Below are positions 6,613 to 21,527 of a stretch of 33,289 bases of DNA, piece by piece. Below the pieces are notes generated by a model, which searched no databases, was not told where the DNA came from, and saw nothing but the letters and a program-made list of their open reading frames with translations. Within the stretch, counting starts at the first letter, position 1. Each line of letters opens with the position of its first letter. The stretch is taken from the NCBI GenBank assembly GCA_900320505.1, contig ONSL01000008.1, forward strand, positions 1-33,289. Reading direction: 5' to 3'. The stretch comes from an uncultured Eubacteriales bacterium (GTDB lineage Bacteria; Bacillota_I; Bacilli_A; RF39; UBA660). Position numbers and translations under genes: made by a program.

Positions 6613-7419
6613 ATGAATAAGAAGGTAAAGAAAGCTAAATCTAATAAGATTAAACTTACTAAGAAAATTATATTTCTACTTCTTTTATTACTTCTCATTT
6701 TGCTTGCTATAATATTAAATGGAAATAAGATTAAAAATAAACTTATTCCCGTTTATACTTTACAAGATAGGACAAGTAATGTTGAGAAGTATAAAAAGAA
6801 ATATAAAAATTCCAATGTTATTGGTTGGATTAAGGTACAAGGTACAAATATTGATATACCTATAATTAATTATACTCAAGCAGGAAAAATTGATAATTAT
6901 GCTTGGATGTATGATGATATAGATAGTCTAAAAGATTATATGCCTATTTTTGGTCATAATATTAGAAATGTTGCAACACCACCTGCTATTGGAAAAAACT
7001 ATATGAATAGATTTGAACAACTGATGAGTTTTGTATATAGTGATTTTGCAGATGAAAATAAATATATCCAGTTAACAATTAATGGTAAGAATTATTTGTA
7101 TCAGATATATGGTGTTTCTATTATAGATAATACAGATATTGATACTAGGTATTCTGATATAAATGATAAAAATAAAGATGATTATATAAAAGAATCAATA
7201 AATAATAGTTTGTACAAATATAATGTTAAGGTTTCTAATAATGATTATTTAATTTCATTAATTACTTGTACCAGACTATATGGTCGAACAGATTATAGTA
7301 TAAAAGTAGATGGAAAGCTTGTAAAAAATAGCAATAAAGGGTATAATTATGATATGCATGAGAAAAAGAACTATAAAGAAATCAAAAAAATATTAGAAGG
7401 AGATGGCGAAGATGTCTAA
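6613..7419 (+). CDS. Class B sortase
   Basis: A 268-aa protein with an N-terminal membrane anchor (residues ~18-40), so the catalytic domain faces outward. Class B features are WIKVQGTNIDIPIINY, the long YDDIDSLKDYMPIFGHN segment with catalytic His115, and LITCTRLYGRTDY carrying the nucleophile Cys219 and probable Arg225. Sortases cut a sorting motif and join the protein to the cell wall or to another pilin subunit. No LPXTG- or NPQTN-type signal with a C-terminal hydrophobic anchor is visible in the neighbouring secreted proteins, so its substrate is unclear. It overlaps the next gene by 8 nt, and GAGGAG precedes its ATG, so it is a full member of the Tad-like operon. Confidence 0.85.
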   Translation: MNKKVKKAKSNKIKLTKKIIFLLLLLLLILLAIILNGNKIKNKLIPVYTLQDRTSNVEKYKKKYKNSNVIGWIKVQGTNIDIPIINYTQAGKIDNYAWMYDDIDSLKDYMPIFGHNIRNVATPPAIGKNYMNRFEQLMSFVYSDFADENKYIQLTINGKNYLYQIYGVSIIDNTDIDTRYSDINDKNKDDYIKESINNSLYKYNVKVSNNDYLISLITCTRLYGRTDYSIKVDGKLVKNSNKGYNYDMHEKKNYKEIKKILEGDGEDV

Positions 7420-10400
7420 TAATAAAGTAAAAAAGTGGGTTGGAATATTTTTACTAGCCATTGTGATGATTTTTGGATTTACATTAGTTGATGTAAATTT
7501 TAGTAGTGATAACAATGTATATGCTGCCCAGGGTTGTGGTACATTAAGACACAAACAAGGAAATAAATGCGTTGATGGTGCAAATACTATTTGCAAGGGT
7601 AAAGGAAAAAATAGAAGCTGCTCGTGTATGAAAGGATATGGTAAACCAAATAGCAGTGATCCTAATTGCACCCAAGTATGTGGTTCAGATGAAGATACAA
7701 AAGGAAATTATTGTAAAAAGAAGAAAACTACTAGTGGTAGCAATAGTAATGGAAACAGTGGAAGTACTGGCAACAATAGCAATGGAAATGGTGGAAGTTC
7801 AAGTGAACCTACTACAAATGGAAATACAACGATGGACTCTACTAGAGATACAACTATTCAAAAAGACACAAAAGAGAAGAAGGTTAATCTAGCTAACGGT
7901 AAGACTTTTACATATAGTTTTTCTAATAAGGATGATCCAACTAGTGGTGGTCTTATAACTAGAATTTCGTCTCGCAAAGGTGTTGATGGAGTTGGTTTTA
8001 CTATAAAACTAGTTTCAACTGAGCTTTGGGGAGATTATTTAACACGAGCAGCCAATGAATCAGATTATGCTGCAAATCTTGTTGCTGCAAGTGGTGATGG
8101 ATATATTGTTACTTCAAATTGGACAAGTAATTCATATTCTATATCTGATGATATTGCTGGTCAATTTGAAAATGGATATGTCGTTGTTATTTATCCATCT
8201 GCTTCTGATGCAATTCAAGAACTTTACACATCTAAAACTGGTAAAACAAAAAGTAGAATCCGTGTAGTTGATGATAGTGATCCTAAAACTACATATACTT
8301 TTAAATATACATCGTTTGTTGCTTCTGGTTCTTTACGTGTTGAAAGTAAACTTTCTGATGATGTTAGTGGAAATGTTAAGAGCTTATCTTATGATTATGC
8401 TGTTTGCAAATGGGCTAGAGATAAGATAGCTGAACATCAATCTGATGCTAATTATGCTAGCTTTGTTAAATCTGTTCAGAATAGTATGGAACCATGCCTA
8501 AATGAATATGTAAAATATAATTTATCTAAATCAACTTTGAAAACTTTAAAAGGCAAATTAGAAGAACTTGAAAAAGTTTATGACGATTATGTTGAACAAT
8601 TAACAAAAACAGATGGCTTTAATATATTTAGTGATAAGCTTCCAGATATTGATACAACAAAATGGATCAAAGTAAGCAGTACCAAACTATCTGATAACAA
8701 TTATAAATCTGAATCTGGAAGTTCTTTGAATACTTCTGGAAGAACTGATATGCTTACTTGTGATGCAAAACTTACTAATGAAAAAACTTATAAATATTTA
8801 TACTATGAAGTAGAGACACCTTATAAAGCTAATATGTATAACTTTAGCTTAAATCCTGCCAAGAGGACAGAACAAACAGTTTGTACAACAAAGTGCCGTG
8901 AACAGTTATATATTGCAATGGATCCACCAACTGCTGTATATCCTGGAGACTGCTTTACTTATAGAGTTGAAATTAAGAGTACAAGCACTTGTATTGTAAA
9001 ACCAGATTTTGATAAGTTCCCTAAGTTCCCAAATTATGAGCCTTGTGATATGGAACCTTACTGTGCTGGTAACTCAACTCCATTTATCCATCAAGCTGGT
9101 CCTAGTGCTGATTTTGATAGTTGTGTTTCAAAGTGTGATGGTGGAGAATATACAACTTCTTGTGTTAATAAGTGTTATAATAGTGTATACGAAAATTTAG
9201 ATAATAGTGATGCTACAACTGAAAAAACAAGTAATGATGAAGATACTGAAATAGAAGTTAATGAAAATAATACATTGAGTTACAGTAATAAAGACAGTGT
9301 ATTAAACAGTGTTGTAAAACTTGCAAATGAAGAAGATACTGTTGATACTTGTCCTACACTTACTGATACTATAAAGAAAAATGGTCCAACAAAGGAATAT
9401 GTAAAGAAAGTATATTCATATATAAACAATAACAGGAGTGCACTTGGCAAATACACAAAGAATAGTAATGGAAAGATTTTATTTAAGGGTACTGATGATT
9501 GTGATCCTTGGACTCAATATGGAAACTGGTATTTTAGTTCAATGGAGGAATCAGCAAGAACTATTTGTAACGATTCACATATAATGAGAAATTATTCGAA
9601 AGGTACTGTAACTGGTGCTAGTGACAGTAGTAGCATATGTGGAGTAAAAGCTGATAGCTTATCAGACATAAATGGTTGTACTGCAAGAAATGGCTGTTAT
9701 AAAGGAGCTACATATGATTCTAATTTTGATGAACCAGCATGTGTAGAGTACGAAGATGGTGATTGTGTAGATTATTCTAATAAGGGTACAACAAGTTTAG
9801 GTACTTATTATCCTGATTCTGATGGATTTAAGAGAAATCAACATTGTGAAGAAAAATGTGTATGGAAGAAAAAGAGTGGTTCTAGAACATGTACATTTAG
9901 TGATTGGAATGAGGCAGAAAAGGCTTATACTGAAGATGTTGGTGAGTTTGTTGCCTCAATTAAGGAATGTTTAAATGCAGCCAGCAAATGTAAAGATGAA
10001 TCCGTAACATATATTATGTCTGCAAATGATGATATTGAGAAAGAAAAGACTAAGCAAACTTGTGATACATCAAATTATCAAAGCAATGATTTATGTAGAA
10101 AATTTCCAAGTGATAAGGGTCAGGAACAAAGTAAACTTACTTATGTAGATGTTACTGATACTGATTCAACTAAATGGGTAACTGGTGGTAATAAATATCC
10201 TTCAGTTGTTGAATTAAATGCTGGCTCTTGTGCTAATCAAATTAAAGATAAAAATTATGATTGGACTGGTACACCTACACTTACACTAGAAACAAAATAT
10301 CATTCAATTATTACATTCCCAGGTGCTTGGATTGGTAATAAGCATGGTGATGTTGTTTATGATAATTCTAAAATAGAAGAAAAATGGTATCAAAAGGTTA

Positions 10401-11488
10401 CTGGTAAGTATTGTACTCCATTAACTGCTGAACCAGTAAACACTGATTACTGGACTAAATATCAACTTGCTAGATATGGATGTACAGATGGTGTTAAAGA
10501 AATAAAGAATACAACAAATTATGTTTATAATATTTTAAGCGATATTAAAAACTTTGGTAACTTTGAGTGGACATTTAATACTGGATGCTTCTATGGTGTA
10601 AATAAAAACGCTAATGTTGTTGTTCCAAGTGATTATACTTGTCCTTCACCTTCGCCTTGTAAACCTGGTGAGGCTTGTCCTCCTACTACTTGTGTAGGTA
10701 ATAAATGCGATTCTACTAAAAATTGTAATGGTTCAACAACTACTCCTGAGTGTGATACATCATATGGTAACTTTGATGTAAGATCTAATGCTAATAGTGA
10801 TATGTTCCCATCAAAGACAAGTAATACTGGTAAGGGTGGAACTGTTTCAACAAGTACTAAAACATATAAATCTGGCAATAAGGTTAAAGCAGAGAAGATA
10901 GCTGATAATGATACTATTTCTTCTGCTTCAACTACTATTGGACGTACTCCTGGTTTTAACTGGACAGTAAATGCTTCTAATTTATCTGTTGCTGGTTATC
11001 CAGTTACGCCAACACTTTTAATTCAAAAGGTTCAAGATCCACAATATAATGCGTATAGTAATGATGAATTAGATTATGAATTTTATATATCTAAAAATAA
11101 TATTAAGAATATACGTGATTTAAAAGGAAACGATGCTAAATTTAATAATTTTGGTAATAGTAAATATAAAGATAATTATGATACTACTTTGGATAATCAT
11201 GAATATAGAAAAATCTATGCAGATGCAGGTTATAAAGATAGTGATATTCCAACAGTAACATTTTATTATAGTGGCTTTATAAGAGATACTGCTTTCGTTA
11301 GTGCTTCTAGTGATGATGGAAAATATACTAGTAAGTATGCAAGTGAGCAGTCACGTAAGTGCAATAATATGAAGGGTAGTGCTGTTGGTGCTTCTGGTGG
11401 ATGTGATGATTTAACTGCTTATTATAGTACTGATGGTAATCAACTTAAAAATTTCATTGATGGCGCTGCAGCTGATTTAACAAAATAA
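7412..11488 (+). CDS. Giant secreted cysteine-rich protein of the Tad-like operon (unknown function)
   Basis: About 1358 aa. The ATG at 7412 (MSNNKVKK) is preferred because AAGGAG ends at 7402, 9 nt away; the ATG at 7403 abuts the ribosome site. Residues ~8-38 form a signal peptide with likely cleavage after VYA. A Cys-knot or EGF-like stretch follows (roughly eight cysteines in 65 residues), then a Ser/Gly/Asn linker, then a long region with no domain I recognise. By hand I count about 49 cysteines, very high for a secreted Gram-positive protein. Clusters include CVSKCDGGEYTTSCVNKC and CPSPSPCKPGEACPPTTC. There is no C-terminal sorting signal or membrane anchor (it ends AAADLTK). It may be the pilus tip, an adhesin or a secreted substrate of the machine. 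Disulfide stabilisation is inferred. Confidence 0.7.
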   Translation: MSNNKVKKWVGIFLLAIVMIFGFTLVDVNFSSDNNVYAAQGCGTLRHKQGNKCVDGANTICKGKGKNRSCSCMKGYGKPNSSDPNCTQVCGSDEDTKGNYCKKKKTTSGSNSNGNSGSTGNNSNGNGGSSSEPTTNGNTTMDSTRDTTIQKDTKEKKVNLANGKTFTYSFSNKDDPTSGGLITRISSRKGVDGVGFTIKLVSTELWGDYLTRAANESDYAANLVAASGDGYIVTSNWTSNSYSISDDIAGQFENGYVVVIYPSASDAIQELYTSKTGKTKSRIRVVDDSDPKTTYTFKYTSFVASGSLRVESKLSDDVSGNVKSLSYDYAVCKWARDKIAEHQSDANYASFVKSVQNSMEPCLNEYVKYNLSKSTLKTLKGKLEELEKVYDDYVEQLTKTDGFNIFSDKLPDIDTTKWIKVSSTKLSDNNYKSESGSSLNTSGRTDMLTCDAKLTNEKTYKYLYYEVETPYKANMYNFSLNPAKRTEQTVCTTKCREQLYIAMDPPTAVYPGDCFTYRVEIKSTSTCIVKPDFDKFPKFPNYEPCDMEPYCAGNSTPFIHQAGPSADFDSCVSKCDGGEYTTSCVNKCYNSVYENLDNSDATTEKTSNDEDTEIEVNENNTLSYSNKDSVLNSVVKLANEEDTVDTCPTLTDTIKKNGPTKEYVKKVYSYINNNRSALGKYTKNSNGKILFKGTDDCDPWTQYGNWYFSSMEESARTICNDSHIMRNYSKGTVTGASDSSSICGVKADSLSDINGCTARNGCYKGATYDSNFDEPACVEYEDGDCVDYSNKGTTSLGTYYPDSDGFKRNQHCEEKCVWKKKSGSRTCTFSDWNEAEKAYTEDVGEFVASIKECLNAASKCKDESVTYIMSANDDIEKEKTKQTCDTSNYQSNDLCRKFPSDKGQEQSKLTYVDVTDTDSTKWVTGGNKYPSVVELNAGSCANQIKDKNYDWTGTPTLTLETKYHSIITFPGAWIGNKHGDVVYDNSKIEEKWYQKVTGKYCTPLTAEPVNTDYWTKYQLARYGCTDGVKEIKNTTNYVYNILSDIKNFGNFEWTFNTGCFYGVNKNANVVVPSDYTCPSPSPCKPGEACPPTTCVGNKCDSTKNCNGSTTTPECDTSYGNFDVRSNANSDMFPSKTSNTGKGGTVSTSTKTYKSGNKVKAEKIADNDTISSASTTIGRTPGFNWTVNASNLSVAGYPVTPTLLIQKVQDPQYNAYSNDELDYEFYISKNNIKNIRDLKGNDAKFNNFGNSKYKDNYDTTLDNHEYRKIYADAGYKDSDIPTVTFYYSGFIRDTAFVSASSDDGKYTSKYASEQSRKCNNMKGSAVGASGGCDDLTAYYSTDGNQLKNFIDGAAADLTK

Positions 11489-11510: not shown

Positions 11511-12026
11511 GTGAATAAGGCATTTTTAACGGTTGGTATTATTTTAATGGCAATTTTAGGTTTCTATTCTATTAGTGTCATAAGTGGTCAACAAACTGGT
11601 GCAGAACTTGATTATTATCTTTTGAAAGAAACTACGGAAGCTTCAATGAATGATGCAATTGATCCTGCTTATTTTAGGCAGACTGGTCTTATTCGTATGG
11701 ATAAGGAAAAATTTGCTGAAAGTTTTGTAAAACGTTTTGCTACTAATGTTGAAGGAACTCGTGATTATGATATTAAGATTTATGATTTAAATGAGACTCC
11801 TCCTAGAGTAAGTATAAGAGTTATTTCTCCAAAAAAGACTGCTGTTGTTAGGGGATTGAATGGTAATGGACAGAATACTGTTGATATAACTACTTCTGCT
11901 GATATGTTAGTTGAAACAAAAAACAAGTCTAATATAGCTGCTACTAATAAGAGCAGAAAGTTTATAAGAGATTTAAATATTACTAGTTATAACGGACTTA
12001 GTAATAATGCAAAGGCTAAAAAATAG
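11511..12026 (+). CDS. Small pilin-like membrane protein (DUF5411-like)
   Basis: 171 aa starting with GTG; AAGGAG lies 11 nt upstream, and no better ATG precedes the hydrophobic segment. One N-terminal helix (residues ~5-25) is followed by ISGQQTGAELDYYLLKETTEASMNDAID and a mixed alpha/beta domain. This layout recalls the DUF5411 family, which I associate from memory with Firmicute Tad-like clusters; it also resembles TadE/F pseudopilins. It lies 10 nt ahead of cpaB. It is probably a minor pilin or assembly factor; moderate confidence in the fold, low in the precise role. Confidence 0.6.
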   Translation: MNKAFLTVGIILMAILGFYSISVISGQQTGAELDYYLLKETTEASMNDAIDPAYFRQTGLIRMDKEKFAESFVKRFATNVEGTRDYDIKIYDLNETPPRVSIRVISPKKTAVVRGLNGNGQNTVDITTSADMLVETKNKSNIAATNKSRKFIRDLNITSYNGLSNNAKAKK

Positions 12027-12036
12027 GAGGATATAA

Positions 12037-12843
12037 ATGAATAATATAACGGTTGGCTTAAAGAAATTTTTAACTAATAAAAATACAGTTACTGTACTTG
12101 GTGTAATACTTGCAATACTTGTACTTTATATTGGCTATAATTGGAGAGTTAAACAAGCTACTAATCCAATTACTGTGCCTTATGCATTACAAACTATTAA
12201 AGCTGGTACACAGATAACTGAAGATATGGTTGGTGAAACTCAGGTTCCGCCTTCTATGATAAAAGGTGAAATTTATAGATCTAAACAAAGTGTAATAGAT
12301 AAGTATGCTTATTCTGATTCTGTTATACCTGAAGGTAGTTTATTTTATAAAAGATCAGTTGTTTCTAAAGAACAACTCCCTGATAGTATAATTCTTGATT
12401 ATCCTAAGGGATATGTTCTATATTATATGTCTGTTGATATGACAACTACGTATAGTAACTCTATATATCCTGGTAATTATATTGACTTATATTTTAAAGC
12501 TACTTATGGATCTGCTGATGAAAATGATCCTAATAATGGTAAAGTTATGGTTGGTAAGTTACTTGAAAATGTTAAAGTACTTGCTGTTCGTGATAGTGCT
12601 GGTAAAAACGTATTTGCTGATATGGACGAACCAGGTACACCATCACAATTAATATTTGCTGTTCCAGAAGAGTATTACATTTTATTAAAGAAAGCTGGAT
12701 ATTTAAGAAACTATAGTACTGAACTTTCTCCAGTTCCTACTGCTGAAGGTCAAAAGAATAATCCTGGTGATCTTAAACTTTCTAGTAAAGATATTAAAGA
12801 TTTCATTAATAATGTTACATACTGGACAGATTCAATGGAATAA
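12037..12843 (+). CDS. cpaB: CpaB/RcpC-like pilus assembly protein (SAF domain)
   Basis: 268 aa with one N-terminal membrane helix (residues ~18-37) followed by a SAF domain (about residues 45-115: VPYALQTIKAGTQITEDMV..., ending ..IPEGSLFYKRSVV). A C-terminal domain of the RcpC/CpaB type follows, with YVLYYMSVDM and YPGNYIDLYF. In Tad systems CpaB/RcpC spans the envelope and in diderms contacts the secretin; here, with no outer membrane expected, it may organise the pilus passage through the wall. GGAGGA precedes the ATG. Its place directly before the CpaF ATPase supports the assignment. Confidence 0.8.
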   Translation: MNNITVGLKKFLTNKNTVTVLGVILAILVLYIGYNWRVKQATNPITVPYALQTIKAGTQITEDMVGETQVPPSMIKGEIYRSKQSVIDKYAYSDSVIPEGSLFYKRSVVSKEQLPDSIILDYPKGYVLYYMSVDMTTTYSNSIYPGNYIDLYFKATYGSADENDPNNGKVMVGKLLENVKVLAVRDSAGKNVFADMDEPGTPSQLIFAVPEEYYILLKKAGYLRNYSTELSPVPTAEGQKNNPGDLKLSSKDIKDFINNVTYWTDSME

Positions 12844-12880: not shown

Positions 12881-14392
12881 ATGAACGAGAATATATTTGA
12901 TAAGCTTGATTTTGGCCCTTTAAGGCCATTACTTGATAATGATGATATAACAGATATCTCATATTGTAATGGTGGACAAATCTGGATTCGTTCTTTAACT
13001 CAAGGTTCCATTCGTGTTGAAGTTCCAGGTTGTACTCCAGAGTTTATGGAAAAACTTGCTTTCCAGTGCTCTAATGTTATGGGTACAACTTTTAATAATG
13101 CTAAACCTTTTCTTGATGCTGAAAGTAGTGAGTTACGTCTTAACTTTGTTCATCCATCTATTGCTACAAATGGTATTGCATGTGTTATTCGTAAAACTCC
13201 TGCTAAAATCAGATTAAAGAAAGAAAAATTATTACAAGAAGATTATTTTACTGCAGATATTCATGATTTACTTATGAAATGTGTTGAAGGACACTGTAAC
13301 ATTATAGTTTCCGGAGAAACTGGTTCTGGTAAAACTGAGTTTGTTAAGTATCTTGCAAGTCATATTAAAGAAACTGAAAAGATAATAACTATTGAGGATA
13401 CTCTAGAACTTCATCTTGATAAGATATTTCCAACAAGAGATATTGTTGCAATGAAGACAAATAATGTTGCTTCTTACACAGATGTTCTTGTTACTTGTAT
13501 GAGACAGAATCCAAAGTGGATTTTACTTTCAGAAGTTCGTTCTGCTGAAGCAGTTACTGCTGTTCGTAACTCTATTTCTTCTGGACACAATATTTTGTCA
13601 ACAATTCATGCTGATAAAGCTAGTGCAATTCCTTATCGTCTTTATTCATTACTTGAGACAGATATTGATGTTGATCAGTTCTTAACGACTATTTATCGTT
13701 ATGTACAGATTGGTGTTCATATTAAGGCATATTATTCAAAAAAGTATGGTAAATTTCATCGTGAGGTTGATGAGGTTGTAGAATTTTATGTTGACGATGA
13801 TAATAAACCTGTTTGTCATACACTTTATAGAAAGTTATATGACATGGAACCTATTATGTCACGTCCATCTAAACACTTAATTGAATATCTTGAAAATCAG
13901 AATCTTAATATTGACGATATTCTTTCACATTTACCTGAAAGGGATGTTGAAGAGGTTATTGAAGAAAATGAGAAGAAGATTCATGCTGATTTGGAAGAAA
14001 AACCTGCTCCTGTTAATAAGAGTAGTGTAAATGCTATTGATGCTGCTTTAAATACTGATTTAACTAATCAGGTAGAAAAGCCAACTTCTGTTGTTTCAGT
14101 TGATGCTAGTGGAAATATTAGTTCTACTACAAAACAAGAGGAAGCTCCTCTTTCTCCTAATGTTGAAGTGAGCAATACTAATAATGTCAGTTCTTCTAAT
14201 ACTTCATCAATTCCTGCACCTGGTGCGATTGGAGTTGATGTTAGTAGTGGAAATCCAGTATTTCCAACAAGCAATAATTCAACAGAAATTGTTAATAACT
14301 CTAGTCCAGTTTCCACAACATCTGTTCAAAACATTCCAGGAAGTGTTCCTGTATCAAGTAGTGCAGCACCTGCTGCAGCAAGTGGGGAGTGA
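12881..14392 (+). CDS. cpaF: CpaF/TadA-family pilus assembly ATPase with long low-complexity tail
   Basis: Hexameric secretion ATPase that powers pilin polymerisation. An N-terminal domain (DFGPLRPLLDNDDITDIS) precedes the RecA-like core: Walker A GETGSGKTE with Lys151, the Asp-box-like TIEDTLELHL, a Walker B-like region WILLSEVR, and the His-box STIHADKASA. These are standard VirB11/CpaF features. Residues ~365-503 are unusual: a Ser/Thr/Pro/Val/Asn-rich, probably disordered tail (KPAPVNKSS..., ending SSSAAPAAASGE) not present in typical CpaF. The start MNENIFDKL has only a weak GGATGTGAG ribosome site. TadB starts 9 nt after its stop codon. Confidence 0.93.
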   Translation: MNENIFDKLDFGPLRPLLDNDDITDISYCNGGQIWIRSLTQGSIRVEVPGCTPEFMEKLAFQCSNVMGTTFNNAKPFLDAESSELRLNFVHPSIATNGIACVIRKTPAKIRLKKEKLLQEDYFTADIHDLLMKCVEGHCNIIVSGETGSGKTEFVKYLASHIKETEKIITIEDTLELHLDKIFPTRDIVAMKTNNVASYTDVLVTCMRQNPKWILLSEVRSAEAVTAVRNSISSGHNILSTIHADKASAIPYRLYSLLETDIDVDQFLTTIYRYVQIGVHIKAYYSKKYGKFHREVDEVVEFYVDDDNKPVCHTLYRKLYDMEPIMSRPSKHLIEYLENQNLNIDDILSHLPERDVEEVIEENEKKIHADLEEKPAPVNKSSVNAIDAALNTDLTNQVEKPTSVVSVDASGNISSTTKQEEAPLSPNVEVSNTNNVSSSNTSSIPAPGAIGVDVSSGNPVFPTSNNSTEIVNNSSPVSTTSVQNIPGSVPVSSSAAPAAASGE

Positions 14393-14401
14393 TAATCTAA
14401 T

Positions 14402-15295
14402 ATGGAATTATTTATTTTAATTGCTATTGCACTTTTTGTAATGATGTATCGTGGTTATAGTGGTAAGAACGCAACTAGGTTTATTAATGATCAGGTAACT
14501 ACTTTATATGATAAGTTTGCTCCTTATTCTTTTAAAAAGGTTAGGGAAAAGACTAAACAATTAGGTAGAGAATATACCCCACGTCAATATATCATACAAT
14601 GTGCTTTAATTGGTGGTGGTGCTGGTCTTATTGCTTACCTATATTTTTATAATATTTTTACTGCTATTTTGTATGTTGCTTTAGGTATTGCACTTGTTCC
14701 ATATCTTGCATTCTTAAGATGTAAAAGAATTTATAGTGAATTTATTTTTGAACAGATTCAGGTTTATACATCTAATACTATTATGGAGTTTGCTACTCGT
14801 CAGTCTTTTGTAAAAAGTTTGGAAGGTGTTAGAGAATCTGGACTTCTAGAAGATCCAGTTGCAGGTGATGTTGATCGTATGATAGAGCTTGCATATAAGA
14901 ATGGTTCTATTGACGAATCAATTGAGTATTTTAATAAGCTTTATCCATATTACATTGTTAAGAATATGCATCAACTTTTCTTACAGATTACTAAAGAGGG
15001 TGCTAGAAACTCTGCTGATTCTCTTGAGCAAATGCAGACTGATATAGATACTCTTGTTGAGGGTGTTTACAGAGATAGAATTGATAGAGCTAACTTCCAT
15101 AAGAGGTTCTTACAATTTGGTGTTATGCTTTATGTACTTGTTCTTTTAGTTCAGTACTTACTTGGTAAAGAGAGTTATATACTTCTTCTTCAGAAATGGT
15201 ATATAAAAGGTCTTCTTCATGGTATACTTTTATTAAATAGTTATTTTCTCATTAAAGGAGAAAAATATTATAACGAGAATGTAGGTGCTGAATAA
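14402..15295 (+). CDS. tadB: TadB-like pilus platform membrane protein
   Basis: 297 aa, T2SS-F/GspF-type inner-membrane platform protein. There is a helix at residues 3-18, a pair near 62-105, a cytoplasmic T2SSF-like region (QIQVYTSNTIMEFATRQSFVKSLEG...), and C-terminal helices near 238-256 and 265-285. In Tad systems TadB and TadC form the platform that the ATPase drives. It overlaps tadC by one base (TAATG). The order CpaF-TadB-TadC is the classical one. Confidence 0.85.
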   Translation: MELFILIAIALFVMMYRGYSGKNATRFINDQVTTLYDKFAPYSFKKVREKTKQLGREYTPRQYIIQCALIGGGAGLIAYLYFYNIFTAILYVALGIALVPYLAFLRCKRIYSEFIFEQIQVYTSNTIMEFATRQSFVKSLEGVRESGLLEDPVAGDVDRMIELAYKNGSIDESIEYFNKLYPYYIVKNMHQLFLQITKEGARNSADSLEQMQTDIDTLVEGVYRDRIDRANFHKRFLQFGVMLYVLVLLVQYLLGKESYILLLQKWYIKGLLHGILLLNSYFLIKGEKYYNENVGAE

Positions 15296-16083
15296 TGGAA
15301 GTTCTTATATTTGGTGGTATTATATTATTTGTTCTTATTTATAATAAGACTATAGATACTAAAAAGTTTGCTAAAGATAATTCTAAACTTTTTAATTTAC
15401 TAAGGGAAGATGACTATGATTTCTTAGTGCATATGAGGTATGGTGAAAAAGCTGATCCTGATGTTTTATTTGAACAAAGAATACGTAACGGACTTTTAGT
15501 TGCTGCAGTTATTTTAGTACTTTTTATGTCAACTGTTAGTTTACTTAATATTGTTGTTTGTATTGTTGTTGGATATCTTGTATTTAAATCTAATTATATG
15601 AATTTAAAGAAATATTATAATGCACATTTACATCAAATTGATTTACTTTTACCTTATTATTTAAAAGGTCTAGAAATTTTGATTCAACATTATACAGTTC
15701 CAGTTGCTCTTGCTAGATCTATAGATGATGCTCCAGACGTTTTTAAACCTGGTCTACGTAAGATGATTGATGAAATCAATGCTGGTGATTCTACAGTTGA
15801 TCCTTATATGGAATTTGCTAAAGATTATCCAGTTAGAGATTCAATGCGTATGATGAGACTTTTGTACAGACTTGGAATTGGTTCACAGGAAAGAAAACAA
15901 GAAAGACTTATGATGTTTTCAAGAAGTGTTTCAAGTCTTCAGAATAAAGCAAGAGAGGTTAAATATAAAGAAAGACTAGAGCATATGGAGAATCAAACTA
16001 TGACAATGCTTATTTGTACAGGTATTGGCGTTATGCTTATACTTTTAATTGCAATGATGGGTATGTTCTCAACTTCGTTCTAA
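15295..16083 (+). CDS. tadC: TadC-like pilus platform membrane protein
   Basis: 262 aa, partner of TadB. Hydrophobic segments lie at residues 2-15, ~66-103 (two helices) and 238-258. The cytoplasmic T2SSF-type section includes LLLPYYLKGLEILIQHYTVPVALARS and SMRMMRLLYRLGIGSQERKQER. Its start codon overlaps the tadB stop, indicating translational coupling. It is the last gene of the long operon; a strong hairpin follows 15 nt later. Confidence 0.82.
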   Translation: MEVLIFGGIILFVLIYNKTIDTKKFAKDNSKLFNLLREDDYDFLVHMRYGEKADPDVLFEQRIRNGLLVAAVILVLFMSTVSLLNIVVCIVVGYLVFKSNYMNLKKYYNAHLHQIDLLLPYYLKGLEILIQHYTVPVALARSIDDAPDVFKPGLRKMIDEINAGDSTVDPYMEFAKDYPVRDSMRMMRLLYRLGIGSQERKQERLMMFSRSVSSLQNKAREVKYKERLEHMENQTMTMLICTGIGVMLILLIAMMGMFSTSF

Positions 16084-16125: not shown

Positions 16126-16145
16126 ATTAATTGTGTGGTGATTTT

Positions 16146-17264
16146 ATGGAAGATAGAAAATCAAATTTTGAATTATTAAGAATTTTTTGTATGTTTATGA
16201 TAGTGCTTTATCATGTTATTTTGCATGGGCATGTTCTTGAAAATAGCCAGTCTCATATTCTAAGTTTTGCTTGTATTGTTATAGTTTCTTTAATTATTAT
16301 GCATGCTAATATTTTTTTTATTTTAACTGGATATTTTCAGTGCAGGCTAAAATTCAATTTAAAGAAAATAATTCATTTTACAATCGAAGTTTTATTTTAT
16401 AATTTATTGGTAATAATTTTATTTTCTATTTTCCATATAGAGGATTTTAGTTTTGAAAATTTCTTAAAACATTTATTTTTGCTTGATAATTCTAAAAATT
16501 TATGGTTTGTAAAGATATATTTCTGTTTATATGTTTTTTCTCCTTTTATTAATTATTTGATTAAATCTTTGACAAGAAAAAAACATAAATTTTTGATTAT
16601 AATTTCAGTTATTATTTTGTGTTTAATTCCATATTTAACTGGTAATAATGGAATTATTAAAAATGATGGTTTTACTTTATATAATGCTTTTGTTTTGTAT
16701 ATAATAGGTGCTTATATTAGGATGTATCCTTTAGAAAATACTGGTTTAGACAATTATAGAAAAAAGATGTTTTTAAACTATTTATTATTTGCTTTTGTTA
16801 ACTTATTAGTTTATAGTTTTTCTTCCTATTATTCTTTAAATTACAAGAATATTTTTAGTAGTATTTTATTTAATTTTGCTAAAGAGTCTTTTTTCTATCA
16901 AAATCCTTTAATTATAATGCAGTCTATTTATTTCTTCTTATTTTTTAAATGTATAAATTTGACAAGTAAATTTGTAAATTTTATTTCAAAATCAGTTTTT
17001 GCAGTATATTTGATTACTGATAATAGTTTAATGGAAAAATATCTTTATAAATGGCTTTTAATAGATAATGGTGTAATTGAATCTTTTAATTTTATTTTTT
17101 ATGTATTTTTAATTACTATCATTATTTTTGTTTATTGTATATTTATAGATTTAATTAGAAGATATCTTTTTAAATATATTTATGATAGTAATTTTTGCAA
17201 GAAGATTGATAATAAAATAAAAAAATATATTGCTATTCATAATTTTGATATTGATTATAGATAA
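16146..17264 (+). CDS. Acyltransferase-3 (AT3) family membrane O-acyltransferase
   Basis: 372 aa from the ATG at 16146, with GGTGAT 4-9 nt upstream; an in-frame TTG at 16131 would overlap that site. A polytopic protein with about ten membrane helices. The N-terminal KSNFELLRIFCMFMIVLYH contains the family R-x10-H pair (Arg12, His23), and the cytoplasm-proximal NLWFVKIYFCLYVFSPFIN is typical. AT3 enzymes move acetyl or succinyl groups onto surface polysaccharides or lipids. It follows the Tad operon terminator, so it is a separate unit; I see no strong promoter in the ~60-base gap. Confidence 0.8.
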   Translation: MEDRKSNFELLRIFCMFMIVLYHVILHGHVLENSQSHILSFACIVIVSLIIMHANIFFILTGYFQCRLKFNLKKIIHFTIEVLFYNLLVIILFSIFHIEDFSFENFLKHLFLLDNSKNLWFVKIYFCLYVFSPFINYLIKSLTRKKHKFLIIISVIILCLIPYLTGNNGIIKNDGFTLYNAFVLYIIGAYIRMYPLENTGLDNYRKKMFLNYLLFAFVNLLVYSFSSYYSLNYKNIFSSILFNFAKESFFYQNPLIIMQSIYFFLFFKCINLTSKFVNFISKSVFAVYLITDNSLMEKYLYKWLLIDNGVIESFNFIFYVFLITIIIFVYCIFIDLIRRYLFKYIYDSNFCKKIDNKIKKYIAIHNFDIDYR

Positions 17265-17319
17265 TATATTTATTTTGCTTTTGTTTTAATGTAAAATATA
17301 TTTAGTAGGTGATTTTAGT

Positions 17320-18843
17320 ATGAAAAAAGCATTTTATAATATCAAAAATATATTTACTAAACCCCAGCCTAAGTATATTTATTTTCTTTTTTTTGTTATA
17401 CCTTTTTTAGTACTTTTTGTTAATAGGTTATGTTTTGCTAATGATTTTTATACACTTTTTTCTGTTGGAAAATACATAATTAATAATGGCTTTCCTCATA
17501 ATTTAATTTTTACTATTCATAGTGATTTCACTTATGTTCCACAGCAGTGGCTTACATGTGTTTTGTTTTATTTAATTTATCATTATTTTGGAAGAATTGG
17601 AATGATGTTTTTTTTAACTTTTCTTTATGCATTTATATTCTATATTTCATATAAACTTTGTTATATTGTGTCGAACAAAAGGAGTGCTTCAACCTTATTT
17701 TCTATAATTATATGTGTTCTTCTATCTTTTTTGCATGTAAGAACAAGACCACAAATGTTTGACTATATTATTATTCTTTTAGAATTTATCATACTTGAGA
17801 AGTATTTTAGAACTGATAATATAAAATATTTGTTTTTCTTACCGATACTTTCTATTCTTCTTATAAATTTTCATGCTTCTAGTTTTTCCCTTTTATTTAT
17901 TTTTATGATTCCATATTTTATAGATACTTTTAGTTTTAATATATTTGGTATTAGGGGCAAGAAAAGAAAAAGAACACCACTTGTTTTATCTTTAATTGCT
18001 ATGTTAATTTCTGGATTTATTAATCCTTATGGACTTGATATGATAACTTATATTTTTAGATCTTATGGTAATAAGTTTATAAACCTTGTTGTTAATGAGA
18101 TGAAAGCACCAGTTATTACTGATAAAATAGGATTTTTTGTCTATTTCGTAATTTTTAGTGTTTTATTTATTTATTTTCATTTTAAGGATAAGCAAATTAA
18201 GGCTAGATATTTCTTTTTAACATTAGGTACTATTTTTATGACATTACTTAATGTAAAAAGTTTTTCTTATTTTGTTATTTCATCTTTTTTTCCACTTGCT
18301 GATTATTTAAGTGATTATTTTGCAAAAGATGAGGAGTTTACAATTACTAAAGAATTTAAGAAAAATTATTTTATAGCATTTGGCTTTTTAATTCTAATTA
18401 CTATTCTTTCATTTATTATGGGATATAATAATAAAGTTGCAAATAATAATTCTATAAAAAAAATTGCTAATTATTTATCTAAAGAGCAAAAAAAAGAAAA
18501 TAAAAAGTTTAGAGTTTATACAAATTATGATAATGGATCATATGCTGAATTTAAAGGACTTAGTGTATATATAGATCCTAGGGCAGAAGCTTTTTTAAAA
18601 AGCAATAATAAGAAAGAAGATATATTTAAAGAATATTATATGCTTGATTATTATGATTCTGATATTGAAAAATTTTTAAATAAATATAATTTTGATTATA
18701 TAATTGTATCTGATGATGAAAGACTTTATTATAATTATTTGAATACTAATAAGAATAAAAAATATAAAAAGGTATATACTGAAAAAGAAAGAATTGAATA
18801 CAATAAATATACTATGAGTTATTTATATAAAAGAATTAACTAA
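17320..18843 (+). CDS. Polytopic membrane protein, GT-C glycosyltransferase-like (uncertain)
   Basis: 507 aa with roughly ten to eleven predicted membrane helices and an extracytoplasmic C-terminal domain of ~130 residues (KFRVYTNYDNGSYAEF...). The first external loop has ANDFYTLFSVGKYII followed by QQWLTCVLFY. An acidic residue in that loop followed by a hydrophobic W-containing helix is the layout of GT-C lipid-phosphosugar transferases. Further conserved-looking bits are NFHASSFSL and INPYG. I do not recognise a named family. A GGTGAT site precedes the ATG. It may work with the upstream acyltransferase on a surface glycan; the function is inference only. Confidence 0.5.
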   Translation: MKKAFYNIKNIFTKPQPKYIYFLFFVIPFLVLFVNRLCFANDFYTLFSVGKYIINNGFPHNLIFTIHSDFTYVPQQWLTCVLFYLIYHYFGRIGMMFFLTFLYAFIFYISYKLCYIVSNKRSASTLFSIIICVLLSFLHVRTRPQMFDYIIILLEFIILEKYFRTDNIKYLFFLPILSILLINFHASSFSLLFIFMIPYFIDTFSFNIFGIRGKKRKRTPLVLSLIAMLISGFINPYGLDMITYIFRSYGNKFINLVVNEMKAPVITDKIGFFVYFVIFSVLFIYFHFKDKQIKARYFFLTLGTIFMTLLNVKSFSYFVISSFFPLADYLSDYFAKDEEFTITKEFKKNYFIAFGFLILITILSFIMGYNNKVANNNSIKKIANYLSKEQKKENKKFRVYTNYDNGSYAEFKGLSVYIDPRAEAFLKSNNKKEDIFKEYYMLDYYDSDIEKFLNKYNFDYIIVSDDERLYYNYLNTNKNKKYKKVYTEKERIEYNKYTMSYLYKRIN

Positions 18844-18908: not shown

Positions 18909-18942
18909 AGTGTTGATGATATGAAAGGAGAATTTGATATAT

Positions 18943-19107
18943 ATGAAAGAGGCTTCAGGAGAGTTAAACCTAACAGTTGTTACAATTATTGCAATTGCTG
19001 CAATTGCTGCATTTTTTACAATGGTTATTTGGCCTAGAATTCAAAAGAGTATTAATAGTCAATGGAAAACTGTAAACAATTCTAGTAGTGTTAGAAAAGT
19101 TCCATAA
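18943..19107 (+). CDS. Flp-like 54-aa pilin candidate
   Basis: A 54-codon gene with AAAGGAG (18924-18930) 12 nt upstream. The protein starts MKEASGELNLTVV, then has one hydrophobic helix (residues ~10-30, TIIAIAAIAAFFTMVIW) and a short polar tail ending VRKVP. Size, very short charged leader with a glycine, and helix match Flp/Tad major pilins, although the family's Glu at +5 is not obvious (a Glu follows the Gly directly). It stands first in an operon with two TadE/F-like proteins that begin MREALGG, sharing the leader pattern M-[KR]-E-A-x-G. The precursor would be cut by a prepilin peptidase near Gly6; none is encoded in this window. This is probably the major shaft subunit (inference). Confidence 0.7.
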   Translation: MKEASGELNLTVVTIIAIAAIAAFFTMVIWPRIQKSINSQWKTVNNSSSVRKVP

Positions 19108-19128
19108 AATACGTGAGGTAATTAATTT

Positions 19129-19599
19129 ATGAGAGATGCATTAGGTGGTTATTTTAACTTAACAATTCTTATATTCTTTATTATAATGGTTACTGCACTA
19201 ATTGCACTTGCACTTAATTATACTAGAGCATACCGTGTCAAAGATCATATTATTACTTATATTGAAAAGTATGAGGGTAATATGGAAGAAAATGGTAAAA
19301 AAGACGGCATGTATTCTCATATTAACGATTATATCAAATCTGTTGGATATGTTGCTAGTCGTACTGCAATGGATAATCTTGATAATAAACAGTTTCGTGG
19401 TGATACTTATACATGTGTAAGAGATCAAGGATGGTGTTATTCAAAGTCTACTCCTCAAGAGAATGAAAGAGGAGAAGAAGAATTTCATGTTAATGTAGTT
19501 GTTTTTGTTAATTCACATTTACCATTTATTAATCAACTTTTCTCAAATCAGTTCTTTTGGATGAAAGGTACAACCACTGATATACCAGTTTTTGATTAG
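19129..19599 (+). CDS. TadE/TadF-like minor pilin (paralogue 1)
   Basis: 156 aa. Leader MREALGGY, helix at residues ~9-31, then a helical stalk (TRAYRVKDHIITYIEKYEG) and a globular part with CVRDQGWCY and a C-terminal NSHLPFINQLFSNQFFWMKGTT. It is a homologue of the next gene product, with matching leader, IEKY, GWCY and xPxxNxLF...FF..GxT blocks. The cysteine pair probably forms a disulfide outside the cell. GAGGTAA precedes the ATG. TadE/F proteins are processed pseudopilins in Tad systems. Confidence 0.75.
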   Translation: MRDALGGYFNLTILIFFIIMVTALIALALNYTRAYRVKDHIITYIEKYEGNMEENGKKDGMYSHINDYIKSVGYVASRTAMDNLDNKQFRGDTYTCVRDQGWCYSKSTPQENERGEEEFHVNVVVFVNSHLPFINQLFSNQFFWMKGTTTDIPVFD

Positions 19600-19610
19600 G
19601 AGGTATTGTT

Positions 19611-20102
19611 ATGCGTGAAGCATTAGGCGGCTATTATGCCTACATTGTTATTGTTTTGTTCATTTTAGTCGTTAGTGGCTTTATGTCATTTACAATTAGT
19701 TATAATAAGGCTTTTCAAATGAAAAACAGAGCTATATCAGTTATTGAAAAATATAATAATGATGTTAATAATGATAATGTCACAACTGAACTTCGTGATT
19801 ATGCTAGATCAATCGGTTATGCTGCAGATAAGTCTTTCGTTCAGGCAGCTGAACATGAAGGATATGATTGTAAAAATGCAGGATGGTGTTATAAGGTAGT
19901 TGATGTTGTTGGTGGAAATAGTGACGTAAAAAAATCATATGATAATGGTGGTAAACATGCAATAGATGAATATACTAGTTCTTATGTTGAAGTTCAGACA
20001 TTTGTTAGTATTCAAATTCCAATATTCAATACTTTATTCTTTCCAAATATAAGATTTTTTAGAGTTACTGGTGCAACTAAAACAGTAAATTTATATAATT
20101 AA
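19611..20102 (+). CDS. TadE/TadF-like minor pilin (paralogue 2)
   Basis: 163 aa, tandem paralogue of the preceding protein: MREALGGYYAY leader, helix ~9-31, AISVIEKYN, YARSIGYAADKS, CKNAGWCYK, and a C-terminal QIPIFNTLFFPNIRFFRVTGAT. The gene follows by 11 nt with its own AGGAGG. The pair probably arose by duplication and may form a hetero-oligomer at the pilus tip or base (inference). Confidence 0.75.
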   Translation: MREALGGYYAYIVIVLFILVVSGFMSFTISYNKAFQMKNRAISVIEKYNNDVNNDNVTTELRDYARSIGYAADKSFVQAAEHEGYDCKNAGWCYKVVDVVGGNSDVKKSYDNGGKHAIDEYTSSYVEVQTFVSIQIPIFNTLFFPNIRFFRVTGATKTVNLYN

Positions 20103-20113
20103 TAGGTGATAGT

Positions 20114-21112
20114 ATGAATGTAATAATTGCAAATGAAAGAAAAGAAGATCTCGAAAAGTTAGGTATTGAAGTTATCAAGAGTATGGATGGAGTTTTTTCT
20201 GTAGATGAACTCCTTACTGCTTTTAGAAACTTTTATTTTAATAAGATGATTATTGATTTTACTGCTATCAAAGATTCTATGAATATAAGTAATTTACAAA
20301 GACTTGTTATGGAAATCGATGCTAATAAAATTATACTTTTATTACCTAATACTCCAGAATGTTCTAGTAAAAGTTTTTTACTTAGAATTATATCTATTGG
20401 TATTTATAATTTTACTAATAATATTGAAGGAGTTAAATATTTAGTAGATCATACTAATACTGAAAATGATGTTAGTTATGTGTATAATATGCAGGATGAT
20501 AGTGGTGAGTCTTCTTTTGGTGGTGGTAGTGGTCCTATTAATGGTGCTGCTGGTACTAGTGGTAAAATAATTGGTTTTAAGAATATTACCGATCATGCTG
20601 GCTCCACAACTCTTATTTATATGATTAAGAAAGAGCTTGAGAGACATTATGGAGAAAGTGTTTATGCCATTGAAGTAAGTAGACATGATTTAGAATATTT
20701 TAATGTTAAAAATACTATTTCTACTAATAAAGTAGGTCTTACTAGTACAATTAATAAGATTGCAGGTGCATCTTTTATACTTGTTGATTTAAACGATATG
20801 GAAGATGTTTCTATGTGTGATAGAGTTATATATTTAATTGAACCTAGTAGTATAATGCTTAATAAACTAATGAGAGCGGATAGGGAGATTTTTGATCATT
20901 TAACTGGTTCTACTATTGTTTTAAATAAGAGTATGCTATCTTCAAAAGAGGTTAGTGAATTTGAATATGAAACAAAAGCTCATGTATTTTTCAATATGCC
21001 TCCGGTTAATGATAGAAGAAAAAGTGATGATATAGTCAATTTCTTAACTAGACTTGGTATGTTTGGTGGAGAAGAAAAGACTGGTGGTTTCTTTAGTTTA
21101 TTTAGGAATTAA
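20114..21112 (+). CDS. CpaE/TadZ-like pilus localisation protein with degenerate P-loop
   Basis: 332 aa. Residues 1-120 form a receiver-like alpha/beta domain (MNVIIANERKEDLEKLGIEV...). A Gly/Ser-rich linker (residues ~128-150, FGGGSGPINGAAGTSG) follows, then a ParA/MinD-like domain beginning KIIGFKNI. The place of the deviant Walker A (normally KGGxGKTT) reads TDHAGSTTL (residues 159-167), with both signature lysines missing. ATPase activity is therefore doubtful, although degenerate TadZ proteins are known. A hydrophobic ASFILVDLNDM segment takes the place of Walker B. In Tad systems CpaE/TadZ positions the machine at the membrane or pole. Its GTG-rich RBS AGGTGAT is 5 nt before the ATG. 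Confidence 0.72.
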   Translation: MNVIIANERKEDLEKLGIEVIKSMDGVFSVDELLTAFRNFYFNKMIIDFTAIKDSMNISNLQRLVMEIDANKIILLLPNTPECSSKSFLLRIISIGIYNFTNNIEGVKYLVDHTNTENDVSYVYNMQDDSGESSFGGGSGPINGAAGTSGKIIGFKNITDHAGSTTLIYMIKKELERHYGESVYAIEVSRHDLEYFNVKNTISTNKVGLTSTINKIAGASFILVDLNDMEDVSMCDRVIYLIEPSSIMLNKLMRADREIFDHLTGSTIVLNKSMLSSKEVSEFEYETKAHVFFNMPPVNDRRKSDDIVNFLTRLGMFGGEEKTGGFFSLFRN

Positions 21113-21152: not shown

Positions 21153-21179
21153 TATTGTTAGGTGAAGGAGAGATTTTGT

Positions 21180-21527
21180 ATGAATAATTTACTTTTAATT
21201 GGATATGATGCTTGTGAAGCAATTATGCCATTTCTATCAATAGTTAGAAAGGCTATTATTCCTATTATTCAAATTGGTATCCCAATTTTATTAGTAGTTT
21301 TAGGTACTGTTGATTTAGGTAAAGCTGTTATTTCAAGTGATGATAAGGAAATTAAAGCTGCTACAGGTAGACTTGTAAAGAGAATTGCTTATGCTGCTGT
21401 TATATTCTTTATGGTAACTATCGTTACACTTGTTATGAACATAATTGCTCAAAGTAGTGATAAAGATGTCCAAAATGGAGCTAAAGTTGATTGGCGTTCA
21501 TGCTGGAACGAAGCTGCTCATAGATAA
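21180..21527 (+). CDS. Two-TM VirB2/TrbC-like small membrane protein
   Basis: 115 aa from the ATG at 21180, chosen because GAAGGAGAG (21164-21172) lies just upstream; the in-frame GTG at 21162 is inside that site. Two long hydrophobic segments (about residues 25-45 and 70-92) flank a short charged loop, DLGKAVISSDDKEIKAATGRL. Proteins of this layout resemble VirB2/TrbC pilins and 'pilin-like' small proteins found beside Firmicute pilus clusters. Here it has its own promoter and terminator, directly after cpaE. A structural role is likely, but the family is not certain. Two cysteines are outside the helices (YDACEAI, WRSCWNE). Confidence 0.55.
   Translation: MNNLLLIGYDACEAIMPFLSIVRKAIIPIIQIGIPILLVVLGTVDLGKAVISSDDKEIKAATGRLVKRIAYAAVIFFMVTIVTLVMNIIAQSSDKDVQNGAKVDWRSCWNEAAHR

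Follow-up and report, generated by a model that had tools for sequence, protein, structure and literature searches.

Three consecutive reading frames in a 33,289-nucleotide stretch of DNA from an uncultured Eubacteriales bacterium (contig ONSL01000008.1; hereafter the window) encode proteins of 54, 156 and 163 amino acids, all on the plus strand, each with a short leader followed by a hydrophobic helix and each with a purine-rich sequence of the ribosome-binding type upstream. They raise the question of whether the smallest frame is a gene at all, whether its product could be the major pilin of a Tad-like pilus, and which peptidase would cut the leaders. The features of the window that bear on this question are:

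11511-12026, plus strand: DUF5411 (PF17424) protein with a single N-terminal hydrophobic helix (E 3.4e-42)
12037-12843, plus strand: CpaB/RcpC (PF16976 above cut-off; TIGR03177 at 9.7e-9, under cut-off)
12881-14392, plus strand: CpaF/TadA-type ATPase (T2SSE 1e-28; VirB11 117 bits and TadA 104 bits, both under cut-off)
14402-15295, plus strand: membrane protein at the TadB position (by position and topology only)
15295-16083, plus strand: membrane protein at the TadC position (by position only)
18924-18930, plus strand: AAAGGAG, the likely ribosome-binding site of the small pilin gene (from the sequence; GGAG/GGAGG-type sites lie at similar spacing in homologues)
18943-18960, plus strand: codons for the six-residue leader MKEASG, with cleavage predicted after G6 from the conservation of this residue
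18943-19107, plus strand: 54-aa candidate major pilin, consisting of the MKEASG leader, ELNLTVV..., the hydrophobic helix, FF....WP and a short amphipathic tail (sequence, homologues)
19129-19599, plus strand: 156-aa pilin-like protein, leader MRDALG before GYFNLT (sequence, alignment)
19611-20102, plus strand: 163-aa pilin-like protein, leader MREALG before GYYAYI (sequence; predicted long N-terminal helix and small alpha/beta head)
20114-21112, plus strand: 332-aa protein at the TadZ/CpaE position, conserved beside the pilin genes (80 of 83 loci)
21177-21527, plus strand: two-helix membrane protein resembling T4SS_pilin (PF18895, matched in 13 of 15 relatives, best 1.3e-6)

The 54-aa frame is a true gene under purifying selection. 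Relatives of its product were found in 152 of the 193 sampled genomes of the family with a single-sequence query and in 156 of the 193 with a 27-row profile, and it is conserved in 122 of the 148 sampled genera. Nucleotide comparison with five close relatives gave dN/dS values of about 0.10-0.25 in four cases, the fifth pair being saturated at synonymous sites. The shortness of the frame and the lack of any Pfam or NCBIfam match above cut-off (Flp models included, in single-sequence and family searches alike) would suit a chance frame that is no gene, but the spread over genera, the four dN/dS values and the fixed place in the operon refute this view, whose probability we put at practically nil. 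The preliminary description had named a leader or a 54-aa frame unconserved in related genomes as the outcome that would speak against it; both turned out to be conserved throughout the family. Run against 392 genomes of the phylum, the profile matched 17 genomes of this family, and a single further hit, marginal at 7e-4, came from a different family of the class, covers profile positions 11-40 only and lies within a 322-codon frame; there was no convincing match outside the pilin's own family in these 392 genomes. A scan of the GTDB r220 genomes yielded 396 stretches encoding the pilin, 80 of which were kept for locus analysis; their record titles name uncultured Bacilli, Bacillales, Tenericutes, Mollicutes, Erysipelotrichaceae and Mycoplasma, Clostridia once, and several mention goat, sheep or deer gut.

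The pilin gene lies in a conserved operon. Across about 80 loci the gene order is DUF5411, cpaB, cpaF, the tadB-position gene, the tadC-position gene, pilin (1-2), pilin-like (1-2), the tadZ-position gene and T4SS-pilin-like (1-2); the small pilin frames, about 49-109 codons long and often tandemly duplicated (1-2 copies per locus), stand beside the cpaB/cpaF-type genes. Only the profiles for CpaF (T2SSE) and CpaB (RcpC) passed their Pfam cut-offs among the Tad components of the window's locus: the TadB-position protein has no Pfam match, the TadC-position protein no credible one, and the TadZ-position protein neither a Pfam nor a PDB sequence match. A structure model of the TadB-position protein was low-confidence and helical, without a fold match, and the comparison of TadB/TadC profiles with the canonical ones, built from very few and similar sequences, failed to link them. 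Single-sequence and family searches of Pfam and NCBIfam likewise returned no credible family for these three proteins or for the minor proteins. The TadB, TadC and TadZ assignments are therefore given by position and size, their homology being undetectable. The tad-like locus is marked by DUF5411 (PF17424), whose function is unknown: this family occurs in 160 of the 193 family genomes against 0 of 14 control genomes and co-occurs with the pilin (Fisher p 4e-19). In one subclade it begins MKES[YM]WG, resembling the shared leader, and in the window MNKAFLTVG. In most loci one or two T4SS_pilin (PF18895)-like two-helix proteins come after tadZ; together with an ATPase whose VirB11 score slightly exceeds its TadA score, they hint at a mixed ancestry.

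Some parts of the window's locus are less general. An acyltransferase gene and a gene for a 507-aa membrane protein (16131-18843) lie between the tadC-position and pilin genes; in most relatives the pilin directly follows tadC. Upstream of the locus (6613-11488) are genes for a sortase-like protein (PF04203 just below cut-off) and for a secreted, Cys-rich protein of 1361 aa, a pair also present in two other loci (L067 and L068).

The two larger proteins had been labelled TadE/F-like, and homology to these families found no support: TadE (PF07811) has zero matches in the whole genome, the Tad (PF13400) match of one minor protein is sub-threshold (16.1 bits against a cut-off of 22.3), and 40 relatives of the minor proteins have no Pfam family in common. 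PDB sequence searches returned chance matches only. In an AlphaFold model of the 163-aa protein (pLDDT 85.5), residues 2-47 form a helix and a small alpha/beta head comes after it, so that the predicted shape is broadly that of a pilin. Foldseek found no fold relative of this model, and the best hit of a VIA comparison, to a sensor domain at Z 5.1, is within the range of common arrangements; because the protein matches no solved fold, we do not claim TadE/TadF membership.

The leaders were described previously as MKEASGE, MREALGGY and MREALGGY; the first and third are right and the second reads MRDALGGY. The motif common to the three is M-[KR]-[DE]-A-x-G, with the family-wide form M-[KR]-x-A-x-G. 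The sharing itself was borne out across the family, and a leader ending in Gly before a hydrophobic tract, as in class III signals, characterises every member of a set of 56 pilins and 120 of the 125 minor proteins. Within the 56 pilins A4, G6 and E7 are invariant, and mean identity is 81% at positions 2-7 versus 47% at positions 8-30; divergent pilins with an altered helix keep the MKEAxGE start, with few exceptions. Because the 80 GTDB loci were retrieved by a peptide pattern containing the pilin leader, pilin leader counts there are biased; counts for the minor proteins are unbiased. The 125 minor proteins were gathered with a leader-less model, avoiding circularity, and carry [KR]2 in 110 cases, [DE]3 in 111 and A4 in 90, with Ser or Thr in most of the others. 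As an in-frame stop lies 14 codons or fewer upstream of the helix in 92 of the 125, the leader cannot be longer in most cases. Pilin and minor protein of the same locus are 56% identical in residues 1-6 and 12% in residues 7-30, a comparison for which the minor proteins were chosen by a loose leader pattern, so that the leader-less counts weigh more.

The motif is exclusive to the locus and far above chance. Searched with a DNA pattern for the leader in which position 4 may be Ala or Ser, the 1.2-Mb genome of the window gives three hits, exactly at these three starts, and a reversed control pattern has zero occurrences there. In ten family genomes (the window's and nine relatives) all matches at real starts before a hydrophobic stretch fall in this locus, the others being internal to longer frames. 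The leader had also been described as shorter than in classical Flp prepilins. Six residues proved ordinary, and the idea of an exceptionally short leader was dropped: published prepilin leaders have 6-26 residues with Gly at the end (PMC4471445), and a canonical Tad locus of a sister genome (L217:4607-9762) has MKNKNG before QALTEY and MKKKRG before QALVEF, likewise six residues ending in Gly.

A TadV peptidase lies inside the locus in most, although not all, known Tad loci. The tad-like locus of the window has no TadV, and no A24 match at E<1 was found in 988 kb around tad-like loci. The genome search that had been proposed for a leader peptidase did find one A24 prepilin peptidase gene, whose PilD-type product has two CxxC pairs and GGGD; it lies away from the locus on another contig, beside the type IV pilus gene pilC, and the same genome encodes at least 9 ordinary type IV pilins. 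A24 is present in 178 of the 193 family genomes, nearly always as a single copy. Prepilin peptidases are promiscuous (PMC4471445), and a similar shared-peptidase suggestion has been made for Myxococcus PilD (PMC12075869). It is from this promiscuity, the Gly-ended leader and the A24 enzyme being the sole candidate that we infer a shared peptidase. The earlier proposal of a single common peptidase is thus plausible as far as the single gene goes; presence and absence across the genomes compared cannot reveal a dependence, since the association between pilin and A24 is not significant (A24 in 146 of 156 genomes with the pilin versus 32 of 37 without, p 0.17). This attempt to link the peptidase by presence/absence failed: genomes without A24 are also missing the neighbouring pilC, type IV pilins persist in most of them, and gaps in draft genomes, which would give this pattern, are the likely cause of the absences. 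In the genus of genomes G038 and G172 an A24 peptidase that looks intact is retained (L064:7931-8749, L065:6710-7510), although neither N_methyl pilins nor T2SSF proteins, CpaF-like ATPases or Tad pilins turned up there.

The signals depart from known ones downstream of the Gly. Bacterial class III signals nearly always have Glu+5, and Glu+5 and Tyr+6 are described as conserved and crucial for Tad pilus assembly; the Caulobacter counterparts, Glu19 and Tyr20, form a network in the filament core and are required for assembly, not processing (PMC11067988). In place of Glu or Asp, position +5 is Thr in 94% of the 56 pilins and mostly Leu, Ile or Phe in the minor proteins. Tyr+6 is absent from the pilin, an invariant Glu (E7) stands at +1, directly after the leader Gly, and the net charge of the leader is low, near neutral. 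Without Glu+5/Tyr+6 the window's system must therefore assemble differently, if it forms filaments. A clade-wide Tad-like pilus that dispenses with this network and relies instead either on the Glu next to the leader Gly or on a retained leader, perhaps with non-A24 processing, is a tentative idea, which we hold to be possible but doubtful.

The reading to which we incline, with some reserve, is that the three proteins build a Tad-like pilus, with the 54-aa protein as major pilin and the 156-aa and 163-aa proteins as minor, pilin-like subunits, and that their leaders are cut after G6 by the sole A24 peptidase. The N-terminal hydrophobic helix would insert each subunit in the membrane with the M-[KR]-[DE]-A-x-G leader in the cytoplasm, the single PilD-type enzyme, shared with the type IV pilus system, would remove the leader, and the CpaF ATPase, together with the membrane proteins at the TadB and TadC positions, would assemble the mature helices. 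It is rather unlikely, in our estimation, that the proteins are Tad-like subunits whose leader is retained or cut by a different, unknown peptidase, with A4, G6 and E7 serving recognition by the machinery or pairing of subunits. The missing Glu+5, the unusual conserved Ala4 and Glu7, the low net charge, the lack of an A24 gene at the examined loci and the unassociated presence of pilin and A24 would all fit such a case; G6, however, is near invariant in partners that are otherwise dissimilar, and the length and Gly end of the leader are those of the canonical Tad leaders of the sister genome, as a cleaved class III signal would predict.

The assignment of the 54-aa protein as the likely major pilin, made from the window sequence alone, stands as the best reading, favoured by the Flp-like size, the conserved N-terminus and the operon. 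An alternative in which the filament is built from a larger pilin-like protein or DUF5411, leaving the 54-aa protein the part of an accessory or regulatory membrane peptide, could draw on the suggestion that in some Gram-positive loci TadE-like proteins supply the structural subunits (Imam et al., PMC3244431) and on DUF5411 being as widespread as the pilin; the same Flp-like size, the strength of the N-terminal conservation and the frequent tandem duplication of the gene speak against it, and we judge it quite improbable.

With the 54-aa protein as major pilin, the locus is likely a divergent, family-wide and largely unannotated Tad-like locus, in which profile-based annotation would see little beyond the ATPase and CpaB. 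If true, this would fill in the pilin so far missing from a pilus system present in most members of a large uncultured family of gut-type Bacilli, would constitute a natural exception to the Glu+5/Tyr+6 rule of Tad pilus assembly, and would offer a specific leader motif for finding further such loci. No paper on the pili of this lineage was found in the literature searched.

Compared with known systems, the minor proteins are like TadE/TadF pseudopilins in their predicted build of one N-terminal helix and an extracytoplasmic head, in lying beside the pilin gene and in sharing the pilin's leader; they differ in the Pfam searches described above. Gram-positive tad-like loci (Imam et al. 2011, PMC3244431) likewise have divergent tad genes and no classical Flp signal, the two groups being likened by description; they contain tadV, whereas the window locus has none nearby and its candidate pilin is known by conservation. 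A second Tad locus, of the canonical type, is present in some sister genomes (L216, L217, L218), where the leaders are Lys/Arg-rich and followed by QALxEF/Y and where TadB and TadC are detected by T2SSF; the leaders of the window are near-neutral and its TadB/TadC-position proteins escape this profile. The canonical L217 locus has classical Flp and TadE leaders, and no tadV or other peptidase gene was among the genes read there. From the Flp/Tad major pilins (Aggregatibacter Flp1, Caulobacter PilA) the window pilin differs in having Thr+5 and an invariant Glu+1 instead of Glu+5/Tyr+6, no local TadV and no Pfam match above cut-off; it resembles them in its roughly 50 residues, its N-terminal hydrophobic helix without a globular domain, its cpaB/cpaF-type neighbours and its Gly-ended leader.
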